Assembly (NCBI RefSeq): GCF_002237655.1
Contig: NZ_NOKT01000033.1
Span: forward strand, 1-64,000
Direction of reading: 5' to 3'
DNA from: Streptomyces sp. XY006
GTDB lineage: Bacteria > Actinomycetota > Actinomycetes > Streptomycetales > Streptomycetaceae
Length of the DNA: 64,000 nt
In this document: in pieces, positions 13,296 through 28,205 of the stretch
Layout: each line of letters begins with the position of its first letter
Position numbering within the stretch: position 1 is the stretch's first letter
The notes under the pieces: generated by a model
What the model was told of the DNA's origin: nothing
Databases searched by the model: none
What the model saw: only the letters and a program-made list of their open reading frames with translations
Translations under genes and position numbers: made by a program

Positions 13296-13366
13296 GTACG
13301 GAACGCTACTGCGAGCCGGGCCGTCCGCCGTCCTCGGTGCGGGGATGCGGCCCGTACCCTGGAGGC

Positions 13367-14167
13367 GTGCCAAAGACGAAAAAGGCCAAGCGCGACAAAT
13401 CACCGGGCGTCGCGGTACCCGACGAGCAGGGGCTCGACTTCGCTCGCGCGTGGGTGGAGTTTCCCGATCCGGCGGACGACGAGCAGGTGTTCCGCTGCGA
13501 TCTGACATGGCTGACCTCTCGCTGGAACTGCATCTTCGGCAGCGGCTGCCAGGGCATCCAGGCCGGCCGCGCGGACGACGGGTGCTGCACCCTGGGTGCC
13601 CATTTCTCCGACGAGGACGACGAGAAGCGCGTCGCCGAGCATGTGGCCAGGCTCACGCCGGACATCTGGCAGCACCACGCCGAAGGCACGGCCAACGGCT
13701 GGGTCTCCGAGGACGAGGACGGCGACCGGCAGACCCGGCCCTTCCAGGGGTCCTGCATCTTCCAGAACCGGCCCGGCTTCCCGGGCGGCATGGGCTGCTC
13801 GCTGCACATCCTCGCCCTGAAGGAGGGCCGCGAGCCGCTGGAGACCAAGCCGGACGTGTGCTGGCAGCTGCCGGTGCGCCGGACGTACGAGTGGATCGAC
13901 CGGCCCGACGACACGCGCGTGCTGCAGGTGTCGATCGGTGAGTACGACCGCCGCGGCTGGGGCCCGGGCGGGCACGACCTGCACTGGTGGTGCACCTCGG
14001 CGACCTCGGCGCACGGCGCGGGCGATCCGGTCTACGTCTCCTACCGGCCCGAGCTCATCGAGCTCATGGGCAAGGCAGGCTACGACCGGCTGGTCGAGCT
14101 GTGCGAGGAGCGACTGGCCTCGCAGCTGCCGCTTCTCGCGCCGCACCCCGCGGATCCGGTGGTCTGA
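13367..14167 (+). CDS. Cysteine-cluster protein (YkgJ/zinc- or iron-chelating type)
   Basis: The 266-residue soluble protein has a cysteine array: RCDLTWL, then [36 protein letters not shown] and [13 protein letters not shown]. This resembles the UPF0153/YkgJ putative metal-chelating domain. Function is unknown. The GTG at 13367 is chosen because TACCCT (13355-13360) is 6 nt upstream, giving a leaderless message; the GGAGG directly before the GTG is too close to act as a ribosome site. The gene is divergent from ppx/gppA, and the two leaderless promoters nearly abut. Confidence 0.75.
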
Positions 14168-14178
14168 GCGGCCGGGCG

Positions 14179-15897
14179 CTACGACGTGGCCGGGCTCGGG
14201 TCGCCGCTGTCCGACGGCGGGGGCGTCGAGCCCGCCGGCTCGGTGGGCTCCGGGTCCGTCGGCGTGGGCGTGGGGTCCGGGCCGGGCGACGGGGGCTGCG
14301 TGGTCGGTGTCGGGTCCGGGGCGGACGTCGTGGGCGTCGGGTCGGGCCGGGTGGAGGGCGGCTCGGCCGGGCTGCTGGGGCGCGGGCCGGGGCCGGAGGG
14401 GCTGGGCGCGCTGCCGTAGCCCTCGATGTGGACGACGGCTCCGACGGGGGCGACCGCCACCTGCGCGTGCCAGGGGCCGGCGGGCTCCCGCAGGTGGTCG
14501 ACGTACACCTTGATCGTCAACGACTCGCCGGGGCCGAGCGTTCCCGAGGACTGGCTGAGGTAGAGCCAGTCCGCTCCCGTGCTGGCCGACCAGCGGACCG
14601 GGGCGGTCCCGGTGGCGGTGAGGGTGACGAGGGTGGTGTCGCCGCTGTTGTCCGCCGTGACCTCCAGGGCGGTCCCGCGGCCGGCGCCGGCGACGCCGAT
14701 GACCTCGACGGAGACGTCGGCCTTGCCGTCCTTGCCGAACCGGGGGCCGGGCCGGGTGCCGGCGTTGCCGGTGTTCTCGTAGCCGCCGCCCGCCATCTCG
14801 CCGTCCAGGGCGAACGGGTCGTCCGCCTCGCGCGCGGAGGCCGAGCGGCCGTCGTGGCCCTCGCCGACCGGGGTGCCCCGGTAGGCGGCCCACAGGGCGA
14901 GCACGGGCGCGGCGACGACGGTGGCGACGACGGTCGTGGTGACGGCACGCGCGCGGAGCCGGTCGCGGCGGGCGGCGTGGTCCTTGGGGTCCATCGGGAA
15001 ACCGCGCCGGTCGAAGCGCGGCCCGGCGCTCCGCGCGCGCGGGTGGTGCGCCATGGCGACGTGCAGCGCCGCCCGGGGCGCCGGCAGGACGGGCAGTTCG
15101 GCGGGGGTGACGCTGGTGCCGGGCCAGCGGCCGGGGATGGCGCGCTCGGCAGCCCGGCGGCAGCGCGGGCAGTCGTCGACGTGCCGGACGAGCTCGCGGC
15201 GCAGGGCCGTGCCGAGCACCAGCCGGTCGTCGCCGACGAGGTGCGCGACGCTCGGGCACGCCCCGGTCTCGACGACGGCGAGGGCCGCGCGCGTGCGTTC
15301 CACCTCGCAGGCGGCGGAGGCGAGCAGATCGCGGGCGGCGGCCTCGTCCATGCCGAGCACGGCGGCGACCTCGTGGGCGGCGAGGTGGTGGCGCACGGCC
15401 AGTTCGAGCGCCTCGCGCTGCTCCGGGGTGGTGCCGGCGGCCTCGGGCCAGGCCAGCAGGGCCAGTTCGCGGCGGCGCCGCTCCTGGACCTCCTCCGAGG
15501 GGGCCGGGGCGGCCGGCCGGTCGGCGCGCTGCCGGCCGGCGCGGCCCGCCGCGTGGCTGCTCTGACGTTTCTGCTTGGCCTCGGCCAGCTTGCGCAGGCA
15601 CGCCCAGCGGGCCAGCGCGTAGAGCCAGGCCCTGCGGTCCGCGGGCGCGTCCGGGACGTGCCGGCCGCGGCGTTCGGCGAGGGCGAGGACGTCGCCCAGG
15701 GCGGCGGTCGCGGCGTCGTGGTCGCACAGCACGGACAGGCAGTAGGTGAACAGGCCGTCCAGGTACGGCTCGTAGCGCGCGGGCGGCCGCTGCGCCAGCG
15801 TGCGAGCCGCCGCGCGGTCACGCGCTTCCCGGTGCGCCCGATGCGCGCCGGCCGTGCGGGTCGAGCGGGTCGAGATCTCCGGAGAACTGCTCATCAT
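14179..15897 (-). CDS. Sigma-factor-like/anti-sigma zinc finger/BACON fusion membrane protein
   Basis: The 572-residue protein has four parts. Residues 40-205 look like ECF sigma regions (RYEPYLDGLFTYCL, WLYALARWACLRKL, then HHLAAHEVAAVLGMDEAAARDLL). Residues 239-246 form an H-x3-C-x2-C motif (HVDDCPRC) like zinc anti-sigma domains. A membrane helix follows at about 319-338. The outer part has a BACON-like beta domain (around TGTAPVRWSASTGADWLYLSQSSG) and a long Pro/Ser/Thr tail. It may be a membrane-tethered sigma-like regulator or a degenerate one. TACGGT 6 nt before the first of two ATGs (15897, 15894) suggests a leaderless start. Confidence 0.78.
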   Translation of the reverse strand: MMSSSPEISTRSTRTAGAHRAHREARDRAAARTLAQRPPARYEPYLDGLFTYCLSVLCDHDAATAALGDVLALAERRGRHVPDAPADRRAWLYALARWACLRKLAEAKQKRQSSHAAGRAGRQRADRPAAPAPSEEVQERRRRELALLAWPEAAGTTPEQREALELAVRHHLAAHEVAAVLGMDEAAARDLLASAACEVERTRAALAVVETGACPSVAHLVGDDRLVLGTALRRELVRHVDDCPRCRRAAERAIPGRWPGTSVTPAELPVLPAPRAALHVAMAHHPRARSAGPRFDRRGFPMDPKDHAARRDRLRARAVTTTVVATVVAAPVLALWAAYRGTPVGEGHDGRSASAREADDPFALDGEMAGGGYENTGNAGTRPGPRFGKDGKADVSVEVIGVAGAGRGTALEVTADNSGDTTLVTLTATGTAPVRWSASTGADWLYLSQSSGTLGPGESLTIKVYVDHLREPAGPWHAQVAVAPVGAVVHIEGYGSAPSPSGPGPRPSSPAEPPSTRPDPTPTTSAPDPTPTTQPPSPGPDPTPTPTDPEPTEPAGSTPPPSDSGDPSPATS

Positions 15898-16095
15898 TCG
15901 GCGACCGTAGGCGGCCGGAAGGGGCGCCTTCCGACGGCTTGAGCACATTTAATCCGTACGGGTGAAACGATCCCTCAAACGGGGACACGAACCCCCCGCC
16001 CCGGACCCCGGCGGGGGGTGGCGGACCCCTGGCGCGAGGGCGGCCGGCGCCGTCCGGTCGCCGCGTTGTCAGTGGCGGGGGCTACGGTTCGGTCC

Positions 16096-17505
16096 ATGGC
16101 TGCCCGTACGAAATCCACCAAGGACCGCCCGTCCTACCGCTGCACGGAGTGCGGCTGGCAGACGGCGAAGTGGCTCGGCCGCTGCCCCGAGTGCCAGGCC
16201 TGGGGGACGATCGAGGAGTACGGCACGCCCGCGGTCCGCACGACGACCCCCGGGCGGGTCACCACCTCCGCCCTGCCCATCGGCCAGGTGGACGGCCGCC
16301 AGGCCGCCGCCCGCACCACCGGCGTGCCCGAGCTGGACCGCGTGCTCGGCGGCGGGCTGGTCCCCGGCGCGGTGGTGCTCGTCGCGGGCGAGCCCGGCGT
16401 CGGCAAGTCGACGCTGCTGCTGGACGTGGCGGCCAAGTCCGCGAGCGACGAGCACCGCACGCTGTACGTGACGGGCGAGGAGTCGGCGAGCCAGGTCCGG
16501 CTGCGCGCCGACCGCATCGGCGCCATCGACGACCACCTGTACCTGGCGGCCGAGACGGATCTGGCGGCCGTGCTGGGCCACTTGGACGCGGTGAAGCCGT
16601 CGCTGCTGATCCTGGACTCGGTGCAGACGGTGGCCTCCCCGGAGATCGACGGCGCGCCCGGCGGCATGGCCCAGGTGCGCGAGGTCGCCGGAGCCCTGAT
16701 CCGCGCCTCCAAGGAGCGCGGCATGTCCACGCTCCTGGTGGGCCACGTCACGAAGGACGGCGCGATCGCGGGCCCGCGCCTGCTGGAGCACCTGGTGGAC
16801 GTCGTCCTGCACTTCGAGGGCGACCGGCACGCCCGCCTGCGGCTCGTACGCGGCGTCAAGAACCGCTACGGCACCACCGACGAGGTCGGCTGCTTCGAAC
16901 TGCACGACGAGGGCATCACGGGCCTCGCGGACCCGAGCGGACTTTTCCTGACACGCCGGGCGGAACCGGTCCCCGGCACCTGCCTGACCGTCACCCTGGA
17001 GGGCCGCCGCCCCCTGGTCGCCGAGGTCCAGGCGCTCACGGTCGACTCGCAGATCCCCTCCCCGCGCCGCACCACCTCGGGCCTGGAGACCTCCCGCGTC
17101 TCGATGATGCTGGCGGTGCTGGAACAGCGCGGCCGGATCAGCGCCTTGGGCAAAAGGGACATCTACTCCGCGACGGTCGGCGGGGTGAAGCTCTCCGAGC
17201 CCGCGGCGGACCTCGCGGTCGCCCTCGCCCTGGCGAGCGCCGCGAGTGACACACCTCTCCCCAAGAACCTCGTCGCGATCGGCGAAGTGGGCCTCGCGGG
17301 CGAGGTGAGACGAGTCACGGGCGTGCAGCGCCGCCTGGCGGAAGCCCACCGCCTGGGCTTCACGCACGCCCTGGTACCGGGCGATCCGGGGAAGATCCCG
17401 GCGGGTATGAAGGTCCTGGAAGTCGCGGACATAGGGGACGCCCTGCGGGTCCTCCCCCGGTCCCGTCGCAGAGAGGCCCCACGGGACGAGGAGGGTCGCC
17501 GGTAG
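16096..17505 (+). CDS. radA: DNA repair protein RadA
   Basis: The 469-residue RecA-like ATPase processes branched recombination intermediates. Seen are the N-terminal C4 zinc finger (Cys16, 19, 30, 33), Walker [10 protein letters not shown], the RadA-specific [10 protein letters not shown] motif and the C-terminal Lon-protease-like domain. TACGGT (16083-16088) lies 7 nt before the ATG with no Shine-Dalgarno, so a leaderless mRNA is likely; the frame upstream of 16096 is not conserved in character. It is followed 80 bp downstream by disA, a common actinobacterial pairing. Confidence 0.96.
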
Positions 17506-18835: not shown

Positions 18836-18998
18836 TTTCGATCGGCAGTCGGATCCAGCCGGCAGTCGGTTTCCATCGGCAGTCGGTTTTTATCGGCAGC
18901 GAATCGGACTCAGTCGGCCGTCGGATCCAGTCGGCCGTCGGATTCCGTCGTCTGCCTGATTCAGTCGGCCGTCGGATTCCTTCGGCAGTCCGCCTCAG
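18836..18998. repeat. Degenerate tandem array of TCGGCAGTCGGATTCCA-like units
   Basis: Ten or so imperfect copies of a roughly 16-17 bp unit (variants of TCGGCAGTCGGATTC, TCGGCCGTCGGATCCAG) run from 18836 to the stop codon region of the secreted-protein gene. It is not coding on either strand as far as I can tell. It sits between the disA terminator and the convergent gene. Confidence 0.75.
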
Positions 18999-19864
18999 TC
19001 GGCGGACAGTACGAAGGACGTCTGTACCTTCGCAAAGCCCGGAGCCTTGGCCTCCACCAGGTAGGTGCCGGGCTTCGCCGAACCCGCCGGGGGCGTGGCG
19101 CACTCGGGGGCGCTCGGCTTGCGGTCCCACTTCACCATGTAGGTGATGTCGCTGCCCGCCGGCACCCGGAACAGCTGGTGCGCGGCCGCCTTGGGGCAGT
19201 CCGCGGAGGACCAGTAGTCGTCGTCGCTGCTCGCCGGCGTGACGGTGAACACCGCGTTCTTCGGCCCGAGGTCGATCTTGCAGTCGTTGCCCGAGATGTT
19301 CCGCGCGGTCAGCAGGAACGTGGGCGTCTTCTCGGGGTCGTAGGTGTTGTTCCGGCTGCGCAGGCTGAACTTGACCACGCCGGCGGTGCAGTTGGGCAGG
19401 GTGGAACCGGCCGGCAGCGTGTCGCCCGCGCCGACGCCGCCCACCGTGCTGCCGCTCCCGGAGCCGCCGGCGCCGCCCGACCCGGCGGATCCGCCGGAGC
19501 CGTCACCGGAACCGTCGCCCGAGCCACCGCCGTCGGAACCGTCGCCCGAGCCGTCACCGGAGCCGTCACCGGAACCGTTTCCGGACCCGGACGACGAGCC
19601 GCCCGAGCCCGAGCCGCCCGACTCGTCGCGTCCGCCCGGGGCTTGGCTGATGGCCGGGCCCGAACTCGACGGGCCGGGGGTGATGGAGGGCGCGGGATTC
19701 TTGCCGTTGGCGCCGTTGTCGCCGTCCTTGCCGCCCCCGCCGCCCATGGTCACGATCCAGGTGATCAGCAACGCCAACAGGGCGACCACAGACACGAGTA
19801 CGACCCTCCGACGCCAGTAGATGGAGGAGGGAAGCGGCCCGACCGGATTGCGCAGAGATCCCAC
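18995..19864 (-). CDS. Membrane-anchored secreted protein with Gly/Ser/Asp-rich linker
   Basis: The 289-residue protein has a short cytoplasmic N-terminus, one membrane helix (VVLVSVVALLALLITWIV), a long low-complexity linker rich in GSGDGSGDG repeats, and a C-terminal beta-rich domain (about 175-289) with two Cys pairs (around NDCKIDLG, SADCPKAA, PECATPPAG) that resembles DUF4232-type extracellular domains. Function is unknown. The GTG at 19864 is preferred because TAAGGT is 7 nt upstream (leaderless) and the 64 residues before it are not protein-like. Confidence 0.75.
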   Translation of the reverse strand: MGSLRNPVGPLPSSIYWRRRVVLVSVVALLALLITWIVTMGGGGGKDGDNGANGKNPAPSITPGPSSSGPAISQAPGGRDESGGSGSGGSSSGSGNGSGDGSGDGSGDGSDGGGSGDGSGDGSGGSAGSGGAGGSGSGSTVGGVGAGDTLPAGSTLPNCTAGVVKFSLRSRNNTYDPEKTPTFLLTARNISGNDCKIDLGPKNAVFTVTPASSDDDYWSSADCPKAAAHQLFRVPAGSDITYMVKWDRKPSAPECATPPAGSAKPGTYLVEAKAPGFAKVQTSFVLSAD

Positions 19865-20039
19865 GGCGCAAACCTTACGAGAGAACGGCGCGTTCGCTTG
19901 TCCCACCCGCCGCTCGAGGCACAACTTTTCCGGATCATCATCTCGGAAGAACGCCGTTCCACCCCTGTCTTTCGTCAGGTACGGCACCCGACGATCGCAG
20001 GGTGTGACGGTTCCGGACCGCCGCCTACCGTCCGTGACC

Positions 20040-20687
20040 ATGACCTTCGACGACACCGCGCTCTACCGCGACATCACCGACTTCGCCCACGACACCCCGA
20101 TGTGGGTACGGGAGGGGGCCGGACTGTGGACGGAGGCCGGACTGCTGGTCTTCGTCGCGCTGTTCGCCGCCGTGTGGTGGCGGGCCCGCCGCGACGGTCC
20201 CCGGGCGTTCGCGATCGCGGCCCTTGCACCTCTGGCCACGGCAGGGGCGTACGTGTGCAGTGAGCTGCTCAAGTCCGTGGTGACACAGGAGCGTCCGTGC
20301 CGCGCGGTCGCCGGTGCGGCCGCGTCCCTGGCCGCGTGCCCGCCGCACGGCGACTGGTCGTTCCCGTCCAACCACGCGACGATCGCGGGCGGATCGGCCG
20401 TAACGCTGGCCCTGGTGCGGCGCGCGCTGCTGTGGCTGACCGCCCCGCTCGCCCTGCTGATGGCCTTCTCCCGGGTCTTCGTCGGCGTGCACTATCCGCA
20501 CGACGTCCTCGCCGGGCTGGTGCTGGGCGCCCTGGTCGCCCTGGTCGCGGTCCGGCTGGGCACGGGGCCCATGACGCGGCTCAGCGGCGCGCTGCGCGGC
20601 TCGTCGGCCCCCGTCGTGCGCTGGGTGGTGGGGCCGGGCCGCCCGGCGGGCGCACGGTCCCGCGAGGTGCCGGCCGGGCGGCGGTGA
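20040..20687 (+). CDS. PAP2-family membrane phosphatase
   Basis: The 215-residue membrane protein has the three PAP2 phosphatase motifs: KSVVTQERPC (K-x6-RP), FPSNHATIAGGS (PSGH-like) and SRVFVGVHYPHDVLAG (SR-x5-H-x3-D), within about five membrane helices. It probably dephosphorylates a lipid phosphate such as undecaprenyl diphosphate or phosphatidate at the outer face. The ATG at 20040 lies 8 nt after TACCGT, so the message may be leaderless. Confidence 0.88.
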   Translation: MTFDDTALYRDITDFAHDTPMWVREGAGLWTEAGLLVFVALFAAVWWRARRDGPRAFAIAALAPLATAGAYVCSELLKSVVTQERPCRAVAGAAASLAACPPHGDWSFPSNHATIAGGSAVTLALVRRALLWLTAPLALLMAFSRVFVGVHYPHDVLAGLVLGALVALVAVRLGTGPMTRLSGALRGSSAPVVRWVVGPGRPAGARSREVPAGRR

Positions 20688-24541: not shown

Positions 24542-24834
24542 CGCACAGGAACGTCACAGACGCTTCCCCGCCGCCGCCCTGCTTCAGCGGCTTCAACGGC
24601 CGGGCAAATCACCCCATAACCATCTCAACTGGCCCACCGTTTTACCCCGTTCCGACATCCGTTACACAACCGACGGACAGCCGAGCGCTGGCCGCAGGCT
24701 GCTTCGGACAGCGCCGTGACAAGGCCTCCGTACCTTCGGATGCGTTCCCGGAAGACCCGGGACGACTGAGGACCACAGGCAGTGCACGGGCGGCGGGGAG
24801 CCGGCCCGGACGGGGAAACGGGAGGCGGTTCACC

Positions 24835-25374
24835 ATGGCGCAGGGCGAGGTGCTCGAGTTCGAGGAGTACGTCCGCACCCGGCAGGACGCGCTGCTGCGC
24901 AGCGCCCGCCGCCTGGTCCCGGACCCCACGGACGCCCAGGACCTGCTGCAGACGGCACTGGTGCGGACGTACGGCCGCTGGGAGACCATCGAGGACAAGC
25001 GGCTGGCCGACGCCTACCTGCGCCGGGTGATGATCAACACCCGGACGGAGTGGTGGCGGGCCCGCAAGCTGGAGGAGGTGCCCACCGAGCAGCTCCCGGA
25101 CGCCTCGGTCGACGACTCCACCGAGCAGCACGCGGACCGCGCCCTGCTGATGGACGTGCTGAAGGTCCTCGCCCCGAAGCAGCGCAGTGTCGTGGTGCTG
25201 CGACACTGGGAGCAGATGTCCACGGAGGAGACGGCCGCCGCCCTCGGCATGTCGGCCGGAACGGTCAAGAGCACGCTGCACCGGGCGCTCGCCCGGCTCC
25301 GCGAGGAGCTGGAGTCCCGCGATCTGGACGCACGCGCGCTGGAGCGTGAGGAGCGGGAGCGGTGCGCGGCCTGA
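24835..25374 (+). CDS. sigE: ECF sigma factor E (cell-envelope stress)
   Basis: The 179-residue ECF sigma factor has region 2 (ARRLVPDPTDAQDLLQTALV, INTRTEWWRARKLEE) and region 4 (APKQRSVVVLRHWEQMSTEETAAALGMSAGTVKSTLHRAL). Sequence and neighbours match the S. coelicolor sigE operon, in which CseC/CseB sense wall damage and switch on sigE. There is no anti-sigma gene, as expected for this system, where control is at transcription of sigE. A GGGAGG site precedes the ATG. The 293 bp upstream (24542-24834) hold no gene and should contain the CseB-dependent promoter, which I cannot place with confidence. Confidence 0.96.
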   Translation: MAQGEVLEFEEYVRTRQDALLRSARRLVPDPTDAQDLLQTALVRTYGRWETIEDKRLADAYLRRVMINTRTEWWRARKLEEVPTEQLPDASVDDSTEQHADRALLMDVLKVLAPKQRSVVVLRHWEQMSTEETAAALGMSAGTVKSTLHRALARLREELESRDLDARALEREERERCAA

Positions 25375-26018
25375 CCGGCGAGGGTTCCCCGGGGAACCGG
25401 GGCGGCATCCAGGCGGTGATCACGGCACTGGCCGTGTTCGCCGCCCTCGCCCTTTTCGCGTCCTCGTGTGCCGCCGGCGGCACCGGAGCCCGGGACGAGG
25501 GCCCGGCGCACGCCGACTCGGTGGCGGGTGCCGCCGCGGCCACCCCGACCGCGGTGCCGTCGAAGACACCCGACACCGTGAACGCGGTCGCGCTCATCAA
25601 GGACGACCCGAAGGTCGCGCCGGAGGTCAAGCGGGACCTCAAGCCGTGCGTGGCCGACGAGTACCCGGTCGACGTCTCCTACGGGAATCTGACCGGCGGC
25701 TCGGCCGACGACGTCGTGGTCAATGTGCTGACCTGCGGCGACGCGGTGGGCGTGGGCAGTTATGTGTACCGCGAGCAGGACGGCTCGTACCAGAATGTGT
25801 TCAAGGCCGAGGAGCCCCCGGTCTACGCGGAGATCGACCGCGGCGACCTCGTGGTGACCAAGCAGGTGTACGAGAAGGGCGACCCGGTGTCGAGTCCCTC
25901 CGGGGAGAACGTGATCACGTACCGGTGGTCGTCCGGCCGGTTCGACGAGGAGTACCGCACGCACAACGACTACGGGAAGGTCGTCGGCGACACCCCGTCG
26001 CCGGCGCCCGCGAGCTGA
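25362..26018 (+). CDS. cseA: CseA lipoprotein, modulator of the sigma-E response
   Basis: The 218-residue protein starts with a signal sequence (AVITALAVFAALALFASSC) ending in a lipobox-like FASSC, so Cys37 should be lipidated. The rest is an extracytoplasmic domain. In S. coelicolor, CseA dampens expression from the sigE promoter. The GTG at 25362 overlaps the end of sigE by 13 nt, which implies coupling despite the hairpin at 25383-25398. Confidence 0.9.
   Translation: MRGLTGEGSPGNRGGIQAVITALAVFAALALFASSCAAGGTGARDEGPAHADSVAGAAAATPTAVPSKTPDTVNAVALIKDDPKVAPEVKRDLKPCVADEYPVDVSYGNLTGGSADDVVVNVLTCGDAVGVGSYVYREQDGSYQNVFKAEEPPVYAEIDRGDLVVTKQVYEKGDPVSSPSGENVITYRWSSGRFDEEYRTHNDYGKVVGDTPSPAPAS
25383..25398 (+). 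terminator. Possible partial terminator just after sigE
   Basis: GGTTCCCCGGGGAACC is a 16-bp perfect palindrome 8 nt after the sigE stop and inside the start of cseA. Most sigE transcripts of S. coelicolor are reported to end just after sigE, with some readthrough into cseABC. This hairpin is the obvious candidate here, though the stem is short once a loop is allowed. Confidence 0.45.
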
Positions 26019-26146
26019 CGCCGCCGCACGGCCGCGTGAACCGTTCGGGCGCCCCGGACCGATGACTCGGTGAACGCGGCGCCCGTTTCGCGCGTCACAG
26101 CGAAGAGAACGCACCCCACGAACCCCTAAGGACAGAGAGCACCGGG

Positions 26147-26848
26147 ATGGCAGACCAGACCCACGTCCTGTTCGTCGAGGACGACGACGTCATCCGCGAG
26201 GCCACGCAGCTGGCCCTGGAACGGGACGGCTTCGCGGTCACCGCCATGCCCGACGGGCTGTCGGGCCTGGAGGCGTTCCGGGCCGACCGGCCCGACATCG
26301 CGCTGCTGGACGTGATGGTCCCCGGCCTGGACGGGGTCAGTCTGTGCCGCCGTATCCGGGACGAGTCGACCGTGCCGGTGATCATGCTGTCGGCCCGGGC
26401 CGACTCCATCGACGTGGTGCTGGGCCTGGAGGCGGGCGCCGACGACTACGTGACCAAGCCGTTCGACGGGGCCGTGCTGGTCGCCCGGATCCGCGCGGTG
26501 CTGCGGCGGTTCGGGCATGCGGGCGGGGGCCGCGCCGAGGAGCAGGCCGCCCCGGCCGACGGCGGGGTGCTGACCTTCGGGGACCTGGAGGTCGACACCG
26601 AGGGCATGGAGGTCCGCCGGGCCGGGCAGCCGGTGGCGCTGACGCCGACCGAGATGCGGCTGCTGCTGGAGTTCTCCTCGGCGCCGGGCACGGTGCTCTC
26701 CCGGGACAAGCTGCTGGAGCGGGTGTGGGACTACGGCTGGGGCGGGGACACCCGGGTCGTCGACGTGCACGTGCAGCGGCTGCGGCAGAAGATCGGCCAG
26801 GACCGGATCGAGACGGTCCGGGGTTTCGGCTACAAGTTGAAGGCCTGA
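26147..26848 (+). CDS. cseB: Response regulator CseB
   Basis: The 233-residue OmpR-type regulator has a receiver domain (EDDD 11-14, phosphoacceptor Asp55 in LLDVMVPGLDG, Lys in VTKPF) and a winged-helix effector domain (TPTEMRLLLEFSSAPGTVLS, RVVDVHVQRLRQKIG). Phosphorylated by CseC it activates sigE. It follows cseA after 128 bp of gene-free sequence. Confidence 0.95.
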   Translation: MADQTHVLFVEDDDVIREATQLALERDGFAVTAMPDGLSGLEAFRADRPDIALLDVMVPGLDGVSLCRRIRDESTVPVIMLSARADSIDVVLGLEAGADDYVTKPFDGAVLVARIRAVLRRFGHAGGGRAEEQAAPADGGVLTFGDLEVDTEGMEVRRAGQPVALTPTEMRLLLEFSSAPGTVLSRDKLLERVWDYGWGGDTRVVDVHVQRLRQKIGQDRIETVRGFGYKLKA

Positions 26849-26855
26849 GCGGGGT

Positions 26856-28205
26856 ATGAGGGGGCACTTCCGGCGCCTGGTCGCCACGGGTCTGGAGCGC
26901 GCGGGCATCCGCACGGGCCTGAGATGGAAGCTGAGCGCGGCCATCGCGCTGGTCGGCGCGCTGGTGGCGATCGCGCTGAGCCTGGTCGTGCACAACGCCG
27001 CGCGGGTGTCGATGCTGGACAACGCGCGCGACCTCGCCGACGAGCGCATCATGATCGCCCAGCGCAACTTCGAGCTGTCCGGGCGTATGAACTTCCCCAA
27101 CACCAAGATCGACGACCCGAACCTCCCGGAGGAGCTGCGGGACCGGGTCGAGGCGGGCCAGCGGGCCACCTACGTGGCGGACCGGCCCGGTGACGCGCCG
27201 GACATATGGGCCGCGGTGCCGCTGAAGAACGGGCACGTGATGTCCCTGCACTCGGGCTTCACGGACCGCAGCTCGGACATCCTCAAGGACCTCGACCAGG
27301 CCCTGGTGATCGGGTCGATCGCCGTCGTCCTCGGCGGCAGCGCGCTCGGCGTGCTCATCGGCGGCCATCTGTCGCGGCGGCTGCGCAAGGCGGCCGTCGC
27401 GGCCAACCAGCTCGCGGGCGGCGAGACGGACGTGCGCGTGCGGGACGCCATGGGCGGGGTCGTGCGGGACGAGACCGACGACCTGGCCAGCGCGGTGGAC
27501 GCCATGGCGGACGCCCTGCGCCAGCGCATCGAGGCCGAACGGCGGGTCACCGCCGACATCGCGCACGAACTGCGCACCCCGGTGACCGGGCTGCTGACCG
27601 CCGCCGAACTGCTGCCGCCCGGCCGCCCGACCGAGCTGGTGCTGGACCGGGCCAAGGCCATGCGCACGCTCGTCGAGGACGTGCTGGAGGTGGCCCGTCT
27701 CGACGGCGCCTCGGAGCGGGCGGAGCTGCAGGACATCATGCTGGGCGAGTTCGTCGCCCGGCGGGTGGCGGCCAAGGACCCGGACATCGAGGTGCGGATC
27801 GTGCACGAGTCGGAGGTCACCACGGACCCCCGGCGCCTGGAGCGCGTGCTGTTCAACCTGCTGGCCAACGCGGCCCGGCACGGCAAGCCGCCCGTCCAGG
27901 TCACCGTCGAGGGCCGGGTCATCCGGGTGCGCGACCACGGCCCGGGCTTCCCGGAGGACCTGCTCGCCGAGGGGCCGAGCCGCTTCCGCACCGGCAGCAA
28001 GGACCGGGCCGGGCACGGCCACGGCCTCGGCCTGACCATCGCGGCCGGGCAGGCCCGCGTGCTGGGCGCCCGGCTGACCTTCCGCAACGTCCGCACGCCG
28101 GGCGCGCCGGAGGGCGTACCGGCCGAGGGCGCGGTGGCGGTGCTGTGGCTGCCGGAACACGCGCCGACGAACACGGGCAGCTACCCGATGCTGCCGGCGT
28201 CCTGA
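26856..28205 (+). CDS. cseC: Sensor histidine kinase CseC
   Basis: The 449-residue kinase has two membrane helices (about 26-46 and 148-170) around a roughly 100-residue extracytoplasmic sensor, a HAMP segment, the HisKA box with His237 (TADIAHELRTPVTGLL), the N box (LFNLLANAARHG) and G boxes (RDHGPGFPEDLL, GHGHGLGLTIA). It senses envelope damage and phosphorylates CseB. The start is 7 bp after cseB. Confidence 0.95.
   Translation: MRGHFRRLVATGLERAGIRTGLRWKLSAAIALVGALVAIALSLVVHNAARVSMLDNARDLADERIMIAQRNFELSGRMNFPNTKIDDPNLPEELRDRVEAGQRATYVADRPGDAPDIWAAVPLKNGHVMSLHSGFTDRSSDILKDLDQALVIGSIAVVLGGSALGVLIGGHLSRRLRKAAVAANQLAGGETDVRVRDAMGGVVRDETDDLASAVDAMADALRQRIEAERRVTADIAHELRTPVTGLLTAAELLPPGRPTELVLDRAKAMRTLVEDVLEVARLDGASERAELQDIMLGEFVARRVAAKDPDIEVRIVHESEVTTDPRRLERVLFNLLANAARHGKPPVQVTVEGRVIRVRDHGPGFPEDLLAEGPSRFRTGSKDRAGHGHGLGLTIAAGQARVLGARLTFRNVRTPGAPEGVPAEGAVAVLWLPEHAPTNTGSYPMLPAS

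Follow-up and report, generated by a model that had tools for sequence, protein, structure and literature searches.

Several extracytoplasmic function (ECF) sigma factors have been described or proposed as single chains that carry their own membrane anchor. In SCO4117 of Streptomyces coelicolor (ECF52), an N-terminal ECF sigma factor, a zinc finger, a transmembrane (TM) helix, a Pro-rich stretch and a carbohydrate-binding domain follow each other in one polypeptide (PMC5826349). Proteolytic release of its sigma part is presented as a proposal, not as a demonstrated event, in the passages devoted to it (PMC5826349, PMC8999054), and the fused, tethered layout has likewise been proposed for ECF48 and ECF53 (PMC8999054). 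IutY of Pseudomonas putida (ECF243) unites a sigma factor and a membrane anti-sigma factor in one chain and is freed by Prc and RseP (PMC8999054). Here we analyse a gene of related layout from Streptomyces sp. XY006 (genome of 8.25 Mb). It lies at 14179-15897 of a stretch of 64,000 nucleotides (contig NZ_NOKT01000033.1, positions 1 to 64,000), called the window throughout, and joins sigma-2- and sigma-4-like domains, a zinc anti-sigma domain, a single TM helix and an outer BACON domain.

An earlier note on this DNA had given the bounds of the open reading frame (ORF) exactly and left its strand unstated. The gene is read on the minus strand, from 15897 to 14179, and encodes 572 amino acids followed by a stop; a plus-strand reading was rejected. 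The same note saw in the protein a self-contained sensor, with a releasable sigma factor tethered by its own anti-sigma module, or else a sigma domain that has taken on another role. The anatomy and the tethering by an anti-sigma module of its own held up against profiles, predicted fold and conservation. A releasable sigma factor is no likelier than the converted role, which we consider at least as likely because the residues that contact RNA polymerase and the -35 element are largely gone in the Streptomyces clade. We give an even chance to the reading that the protein is a self-inhibited, membrane-tethered sensor derived from an ECF sigma factor fused to a zinc anti-sigma domain, whose sigma part in Streptomyces is a pseudo-sigma module for protein interaction.

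Sigma-like domains and their contact residues

Taken alone, the window protein is barely recognisable as a sigma factor. All its Pfam sigma matches fall under the cut-off (Sigma70_ECF, E 0.006; Sigma70_r4_2, E 0.097), its top NCBIfam match is PRK12513 (E 6e-7), and it scores 15.6 bits with TIGR02937 at a cut-off of 42.9; it fails all curated sigma cut-offs tested (Sigma70_r2, Sigma70_r4_2, TIGR02937). Nor was the gene among the 48 matches of a Sigma70_r2 search of its own genome. Among distant members, Sigma70_r2 is matched by 24 of 32 and Sigma70_r4_2 by 25 (E <= 0.01). A search of the PDB with a profile of the family, made from 49 hand-chosen rows and not from all members, gave the ECF sigma factors SigH, SigL and SigW (E 1e-15 to 4e-14), with matches spanning both sigma domains. 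At the level of the family, sigma homology of the window protein is firm, whereas from the single sequence it is marginal, and the sigma-2/4-like regions of the earlier note, weak in isolation, are recovered once relatives are included.

The AlphaFold model built on the 49-row alignment has a mean predicted local distance difference test score (pLDDT) of 80 and a predicted template modelling score of 0.61, with most of the sigma parts above a pLDDT of 90. Structure prediction had been named in the earlier note as the check on these domains; sigma-2 and sigma-4 folds are both present in the model, separated by a variable linker (residues 113-142). The leading VIA-align matches are sigma factors solved together with an anti-sigma factor, RpoE-NepR at the top (Z 12.6, 148 residues, root mean square deviation (rmsd) 3.4) followed by SigW-RsiW (Z 11.5) and CnrH-CnrY (Z 11.3), all at Z values under about 13, where according to the tool helical folds may match through a common arrangement alone. 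For this reason the sequence profile is relied on alongside the structure match. Foldseek superposition on 6dv9_F, which is SigL from an initiation complex, leaves an rmsd of 26, against 6.5 on 5uxx_C. The poor fit to the former and the better fit to the latter suggest the closed, inhibited form, and the model, as predicted, fits a compact sigma fold of that type.

In ECF sigma factors the D and Q of the motif AEDxxQE contact core polymerase, and arginines of the recognition helix contact -35 DNA. The core-binding motif is replaced in the window protein by A63-T-A-A-L-G-D-V-L71. D65 is kept in one of 24 rows of the Streptomyces clade versus 19 of 22 ordinary ECF sigma factors of the same genome; the corresponding counts are 0 versus 15 for Q68, 0 versus 18 for R194 and 0 versus 11 for R196. 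The own-genome set took in 41 of the 48 match places, in 40 stretches, where 33 ORFs were matched and 22 kept (E < 1e-7, span < 260); the four best-scoring, one in the window and two others were omitted. Distant members are intermediate (n=25; D65 in 11, Q68 in 4 with H in 11, R194 in 16, R196 in 19). Copies at the corresponding locus of other Streptomycetaceae genera (n=26) keep D65 once, Q68 never, R194 in nine and R196 in three. The net charge of the recognition helix falls in the same direction, from +3.3 in own-genome ECF sigma factors and +3.1 in unlinked paralogues over +1.2 in distant members and -0.4 in the other-genus locus copies to -2.0 in Streptomyces. The usual core- and promoter-contact residues are almost lost in the Streptomyces clade.

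Zinc domain, membrane helix and conservation of the gene

The H-x3-C-x2-C motif that the earlier note had placed at residues 239-246 is there to the residue and reads H-V-D-D-C-P-R-C; a further conserved ligand, C214, precedes it. Of the 38 distant rows in the wide alignment, which omits L083, L151, L157 and L158, 32 have H239, C243 and C246 and 31 have C214. On its own, the window protein matches zf-HC2 under the Pfam cut-off. A search with the profile of the zinc domain (residues 200-300) returned RsiW (E 0.003), 3hug_B (0.037), ChrR twice (0.09) and DdvA (0.57), and these make up five of its ten rows up to E 10; 3hug_B is the anti-sigma factor RslA. AlphaFold places helices at 215-221, 230-242, 244-253 and 275-283. 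The domain has the features of zinc class I anti-sigma domains, namely Hx3Cx2C, an earlier Cys ligand and short helices.

Further on, the model shows a helix at 304-340 that spans the TM segment and a beta-sandwich at 396-494. Since an Arg-rich stretch precedes the TM helix, the N terminus is probably inside and the C terminus outside. The membrane helix, the BACON-like outer domain and the Pro/Thr tail of the earlier note are all recovered. BACON_2 (PF19190) matches residues 411-469 with 36.1 bits against a cut-off of 25, while PF13004 stays under its cut-off, and this part, an Ig-like sandwich, resembles a domain of GH115 enzymes (VIA-align Z 10.2). NPCBM is not listed among the Pfam matches of the window protein up to E 10.

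The gene is under purifying selection in Streptomyces. Ratios of nonsynonymous to synonymous change (dN/dS), which are comparative only given a simple counting method and high G+C, were taken from random pairs (1500 for a set of 117 sequences, 800 for the 81 Streptomyces sequences and for neighbour genes). Among the 81 sequences they are 0.051 for the TM helix, 0.056 for the juxtamembrane stretch, 0.118 for sigma-4, 0.213 for sigma-2, 0.252 for the zinc domain, 0.378 for BACON and 0.633 for the outer linker; the wider set of 117 gives 0.054 for the TM helix and 0.146 for the juxtamembrane stretch. The housekeeping genes radA and disA reach 0.052 and 0.055 (79 sequences each). The TM helix of one other single-TM protein, the neighbour at 18995-20056, served as the sole control and has 0.69 (75 sequences). 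Because synonymous change in the TM segment is ordinary (proportion of synonymous differences 0.29), the constraint acts on the protein. Of 22-residue segments taken every six residues, the ten with the lowest proportion of nonsynonymous differences (pN) fall mostly in sigma-4 (145-178) and in 295-340 (eight of ten), the remaining two starting at 43 in sigma-2 and at 193. The G-F/W-P core of the juxtamembrane stretch is still recognisable in many distant members. A TM helix so resistant to change is more than an anchor; a natural guess is that an intramembrane protease, or a second helix, recognises it.

In a tree of 71 rows, several of them long-branched or odd in composition by the tool's own check, the family stands apart from ordinary ECF sigma factors of the same genome (support 100/99). 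The stem of the Streptomyces clade (100/100) measures 1.56 changes per column. A long stem followed by constraint looks like a burst of change, with conservation setting in afterwards.

Relatives are widespread. At least 444 of 590 candidate stretches were confirmed as such, and the 80 nearest, which were kept, are all from Streptomyces. Of 394 genomes drawn across the class, 74 match, 39 of them from the same genus besides the genome of origin; no member of the genus was seen among the 20 listed out of 320 non-matching genomes. The family profile (E <= 1e-20) matches in 61 of 61 Streptomycetaceae genomes from 17 genera, a count that includes unlinked paralogues. The gene itself is counted in 60, as G426 matches only through a paralogue of the unlinked type, and a closer search of G426 found no copy of it. 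Split or divergent copies occur in G433 (L279), G418 (L266) and G407, and split frames also in G431 (L265). Of the four genomes G426, G418, G433 and G431, three share a genus (g150), and the cause may be loss of the gene, a frameshift or an error of assembly.

In Streptomyces, the gene lies between ppx and radA–disA; ppx, a hypothetical gene, radA and disA surround it in 63 of 63 loci, the count covering those of the 80 that are longer than 11 kb. In other Streptomycetaceae genera, radA and disA are nearby in 18 of 20 loci, which had been chosen for tandem or divergent copies and supply the 26 sequences of the residue counts; the other two loci are cut by contig ends. Outside the family Streptomycetaceae, both genes are nearby in two of 42 loci (L112, L120). 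Six loci of other Streptomycetaceae genera (L247, L248, L249, L250, L251, L264) hold two tandem copies, the more divergent of which has Leu instead of W91. Tandem pairs of sigma-zinc-TM genes also occur in distant actinobacteria on L116 (4419-7598) and L117 (4788-7769); radA and disA were not found on those stretches.

Proposed readings: a converted sigma module or a tethered sigma factor

On the reading that we put forward, the protein would descend from an ECF sigma factor that had a zinc anti-sigma domain of its own in the same chain. The extracellular BACON domain would sense a condition of the envelope, and the single TM helix with the invariant juxtamembrane segment would relay the change inward. 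Inside the cell the zinc domain may clamp the pair of sigma-like domains in cis (for the anti-sigma binding scheme, see PMC7406223). In Streptomyces the sigma part has probably ceased conventional promoter recognition and would now be a protein-interaction module. On a signal this pseudo-sigma module might be exposed, or freed by intramembrane proteolysis, and its output would more likely go through contact with a partner protein than through promoter recognition. In favour of this reading are the profile matches to ECF sigma factors in both domains, the closed fold as predicted, the conserved zinc ligands, the loss of contact residues in the Streptomyces clade while L120 and L112, radA-disA-linked and from other families, still pass the sigma cut-offs (TIGR02937 with 78.5 and 65.1 bits), the long stem with later constraint, the low dN/dS of the TM helix and juxtamembrane stretch, and the presence of the gene in 60 of 61 Streptomycetaceae genomes. 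More tentatively, with a confidence somewhat short of even, we propose a pseudo-sigma sensor near-universal in Streptomycetaceae, in which the ECF fold gave up initiation and became the ligand of its own zinc clamp, with a sequence-specific TM helix as the switch.

The main rival is a working, membrane-tethered ECF sigma factor. An envelope signal would lead to proteolysis, and the freed sigma factor would serve promoters of its own by means of non-standard contact residues. We regard this as possible, if rather doubtful. It is the model proposed for ECF48, ECF52 and ECF53 (PMC8999054), and in the SCO4117 study a truncated form is taken by the authors to be capable of modulating development (PMC5826349). 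The closed sigma fold is intact as predicted. Every one of the 24 Streptomyces-clade rows and of the 25 distant rows retains W91 and R97, in comparison to 16 and 10 of the 22 own-genome ECF sigma factors, and W91 also in 19 of the 26 other-genus locus copies; region 2.3-2.4 is strongly basic, with +5.9 versus +4.3 in own-genome ECF sigma factors. These features leave room for contact with DNA or a promoter and weigh against a converted module, as do several other points. ECF sigma factors tolerate large divergence, and loss of D65 and Q68 is partly common to the distant members. The Streptomyces clade is placed next to L112, L120 and others with weak support (83/75). Six of 38 distant rows are without C243 and C246 in the alignment, and the zinc domain folded alone gives a weak model (pLDDT 72), for which Foldseek returned one irrelevant row. 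The modest VIA-align Z values and the single-gene control for the TM helix belong here, too, and the gene is dispensable somewhere, as no copy was found in G426 and overlapping frames divide it in G418, G433 and G431. What speaks against a working sigma factor is that D65/Q68 and R191, R194 and R196 are almost gone in the Streptomyces clade, that the recognition helix is acidic and that the window protein stays under the Pfam and NCBIfam sigma cut-offs.

Structural resemblance also raises the idea of a decoy or partner switch in the manner of PhyR, in which the uncovered sigma mimic would bind the anti-sigma factor of another ECF sigma factor and so free the latter. The best structural matches include PhyR sigma-like proteins as well as complexes of sigma and anti-sigma factors (9by5_A, Z 10.8; 4qic_A, Z 10.3), and PhyR profiles match weakly. 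However, any ECF-like fold would resemble PhyR, the response-regulator part is missing, and the six near neighbours scanned with Pfam include no sigma or anti-sigma gene, the only Sigma70_r2 match of the window being about 9 kb distant. We hold this to be improbable. Decay of the sigma part into a relic, with only the membrane and BACON part still of importance, would agree with the lost hallmark residues and with the few other-genus genomes in which the gene is split or not found. This is largely refuted by the pattern of selection within Streptomyces, where sigma-4 and sigma-2 both have lower dN/dS than BACON and the segments of lowest pN lie mostly in sigma-4 and 295-340, and we consider it very improbable.

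If a converted, protein-binding sigma module is confirmed, the protein would be a sigma-factor counterpart of the pseudokinases. Domain searches are the usual way to count sigma factors, and the proteins so counted are presumed to work on RNA polymerase; if a near-universal Streptomyces protein retains the fold and the inhibitor of a sigma factor without the contact residues, some fused ECF proteins would be other signalling devices. The gene merits bench study, as it is near-universal in its family, has a fixed locus in Streptomyces and carries opposite predictions for RNA polymerase binding under the two readings. Its TM helix is as constrained as the housekeeping proteins RadA and DisA, and its locus adjoins DNA-repair and cyclic di-AMP genes.

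The locus and its relation to known systems

Coordinates of the gene, its domains and its upstream elements in the window
Feature	Coordinates	Strand	Evidence and remarks
Sigma-like/zinc anti-sigma/TM/BACON protein, whole gene	14179..15897	-	ORF and relatives
Sigma-2-like domain, residues 41-112	15562..15777	-	Family profile, AlphaFold, residue alignment; W91 and R97 kept
Sigma-4-like helix-turn-helix, residues 143-205	15283..15471	-	Recognition helix without R191/R194/R196, net negative
Zinc anti-sigma domain, residues 206-283	15049..15282	-	Ligands C214, H239, C243, C246; helix ~275-283 after
Juxtamembrane stretch, residues 293-318, near-invariant	14944..15021	-	P-R-F-D-R-R-G-F-P ... R-R-x-R-L-R-x-R-A
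TM helix, residues 319-340, hyper-conserved	14878..14943	-	AlphaFold and dN/dS ~0.05
BACON domain, residues 396-495, probably extracellular	14413..14712	-	Pfam, AlphaFold, structure match
Pro/Thr-rich tail, residues 496-572, variable	14182..14412	-	Translation, relatives
-10-like box TACGGT, six bases before start codon	15904..15909	-	Sequence and relatives
Conserved upstream block TTGAGGGATCGTTTCACCCGTACGGATTAAA..., ~50 bases before start	15946..15980	-	Alignment of relatives

The position of TACGGT so near the start codon suggests a leaderless mRNA. In each of the 20 rows in which the upstream block was found, a TAC(G/C)GT box precedes the start by six or seven bases, and a longer start at 15948 is for this reason not favoured. 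The block was not found in 11 of 31 rows, which are of more divergent Streptomyces; its 21-base core has a single copy in the genome at up to three mismatches. Block and box together resemble a promoter for a leaderless mRNA that has a regulator site of its own; no known regulator could be assigned to the block, no motif library having been searched.

Other candidates at the locus were rejected. The sole tRNA call of the window, tRNA-Arg (CCG) by ARAGORN at 14179-14269 (+), is judged false: it falls within the variable tail, and for 14100-16200 Rfam lists no tRNA even at E <= 5. An Rfam match to sX2 (15.3 bits, gathering threshold 40) and a PHROG head-protease match (E 0.17) are ascribed to chance. 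For a viral origin, prompted by the name 'Viral BACON', no support was seen, and chromosomal synteny is conserved.

Concerning the neighbours, the convergent gene at 13337-14167 (+) encodes 276 amino acids, is present in 63 of 63 loci with a dN/dS of 0.155 and has no Pfam match at E <= 0.001. The single-TM protein at 18995-20056 (-) is kept in 61 of 63 loci; it has a linker rich in Gly and Ser, and its C-terminal domain matches nothing in Pfam at E <= 0.001. About 9 kb away, at ~24750-28205 (+), an ECF sigma gene, a lipoprotein-like ORF and the genes of a response regulator (26147-26848) and of a histidine kinase (26856-28205) stand in this order, a cluster that resembles sigE-cseABC.

The gene has probably been listed before. 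Table 3 of PMC11256431 counts S. venezuelae RS15920 among the sigma-factor genes, gives its domains as 'r4, BACON' and shows it upregulated in three ECF deletion mutants; the entry is a table row that, unlike the present analysis, gives neither anatomy, zinc domain nor function. It is followed 30 tag units later by RS15950, then a 254-amino-acid protein and a two-component system, which resembles the window at 24.9-28.2 kb (PMC11256431). Because of this distance and the same rare domain pair, RS15920 is very probably the orthologue, as judged by domain pair and gene order, not by sequence. As RadA is SCO3351 (PMC3897704) and sco3348 is the exopolyphosphatase candidate (PMC4433243), the S. coelicolor counterpart is probably SCO3350. 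Besides PMC11256431, we found no open-licence paper naming SCO3350, SVEN_3210, vnz_15920 or RS15920, other open-licence papers that bring BACON together with sigma factors or Streptomyces look unrelated by their titles, and a keyword check of a report on CisA (PMC12237407) gave no link to the window protein.

Among the sequences compared, the second-best class of matches is represented by 13 unlinked sigma-zinc-TM proteins of Streptomycetaceae (L267-L278, L281; E 6e-42 to 3e-29). They share with the window protein the order of sigma part, Hx3Cx2C and outer domain, with a TM helix to be expected from the layout. Unlike it, they have an intact DDVVQE motif, with D in 14 of 14 rows and Q in 13 (the 14 rows include an ordinary ECF sigma factor on L277). 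Of the outer domains of three that were scanned, two are CAP and one is a glycosyl hydrolase, so that an enzyme-like part outside is combined with a sigma part inside. These proteins may correspond to ECF53 or ECF48. The window's own genome holds no second family match at E <= 1e-20. It does hold an ECF52-type protein (L191) with Sigma70_r2, a zinc-finger motif, a TM helix and NPCBM (E 8e-32). L191 passes TIGR02937 (59.6 bits) and Sigma70_r2 (44 bits), not Sigma70_r4_2, whereas the window protein passes none of them, and in the tree L191 falls among ordinary ECF sigma factors, outside the family studied, as the one ECF52 row and on a long branch.

Of the described systems, IutY differs in serving iron cell-surface signalling, and the passage on it in PMC8999054 mentions neither a zinc motif nor BACON. 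Like ECF52, the window protein joins sigma part, zinc finger and TM helix in one chain; unlike ECF52, its outer domain is BACON instead of NPCBM and its Pro/Thr region stands at the end. The layout is known in kind from ECF52, and the family studied here is probably a separate lineage. As the fused layout recurs with different outer domains, the version with BACON and an eroded sigma part is what is new.

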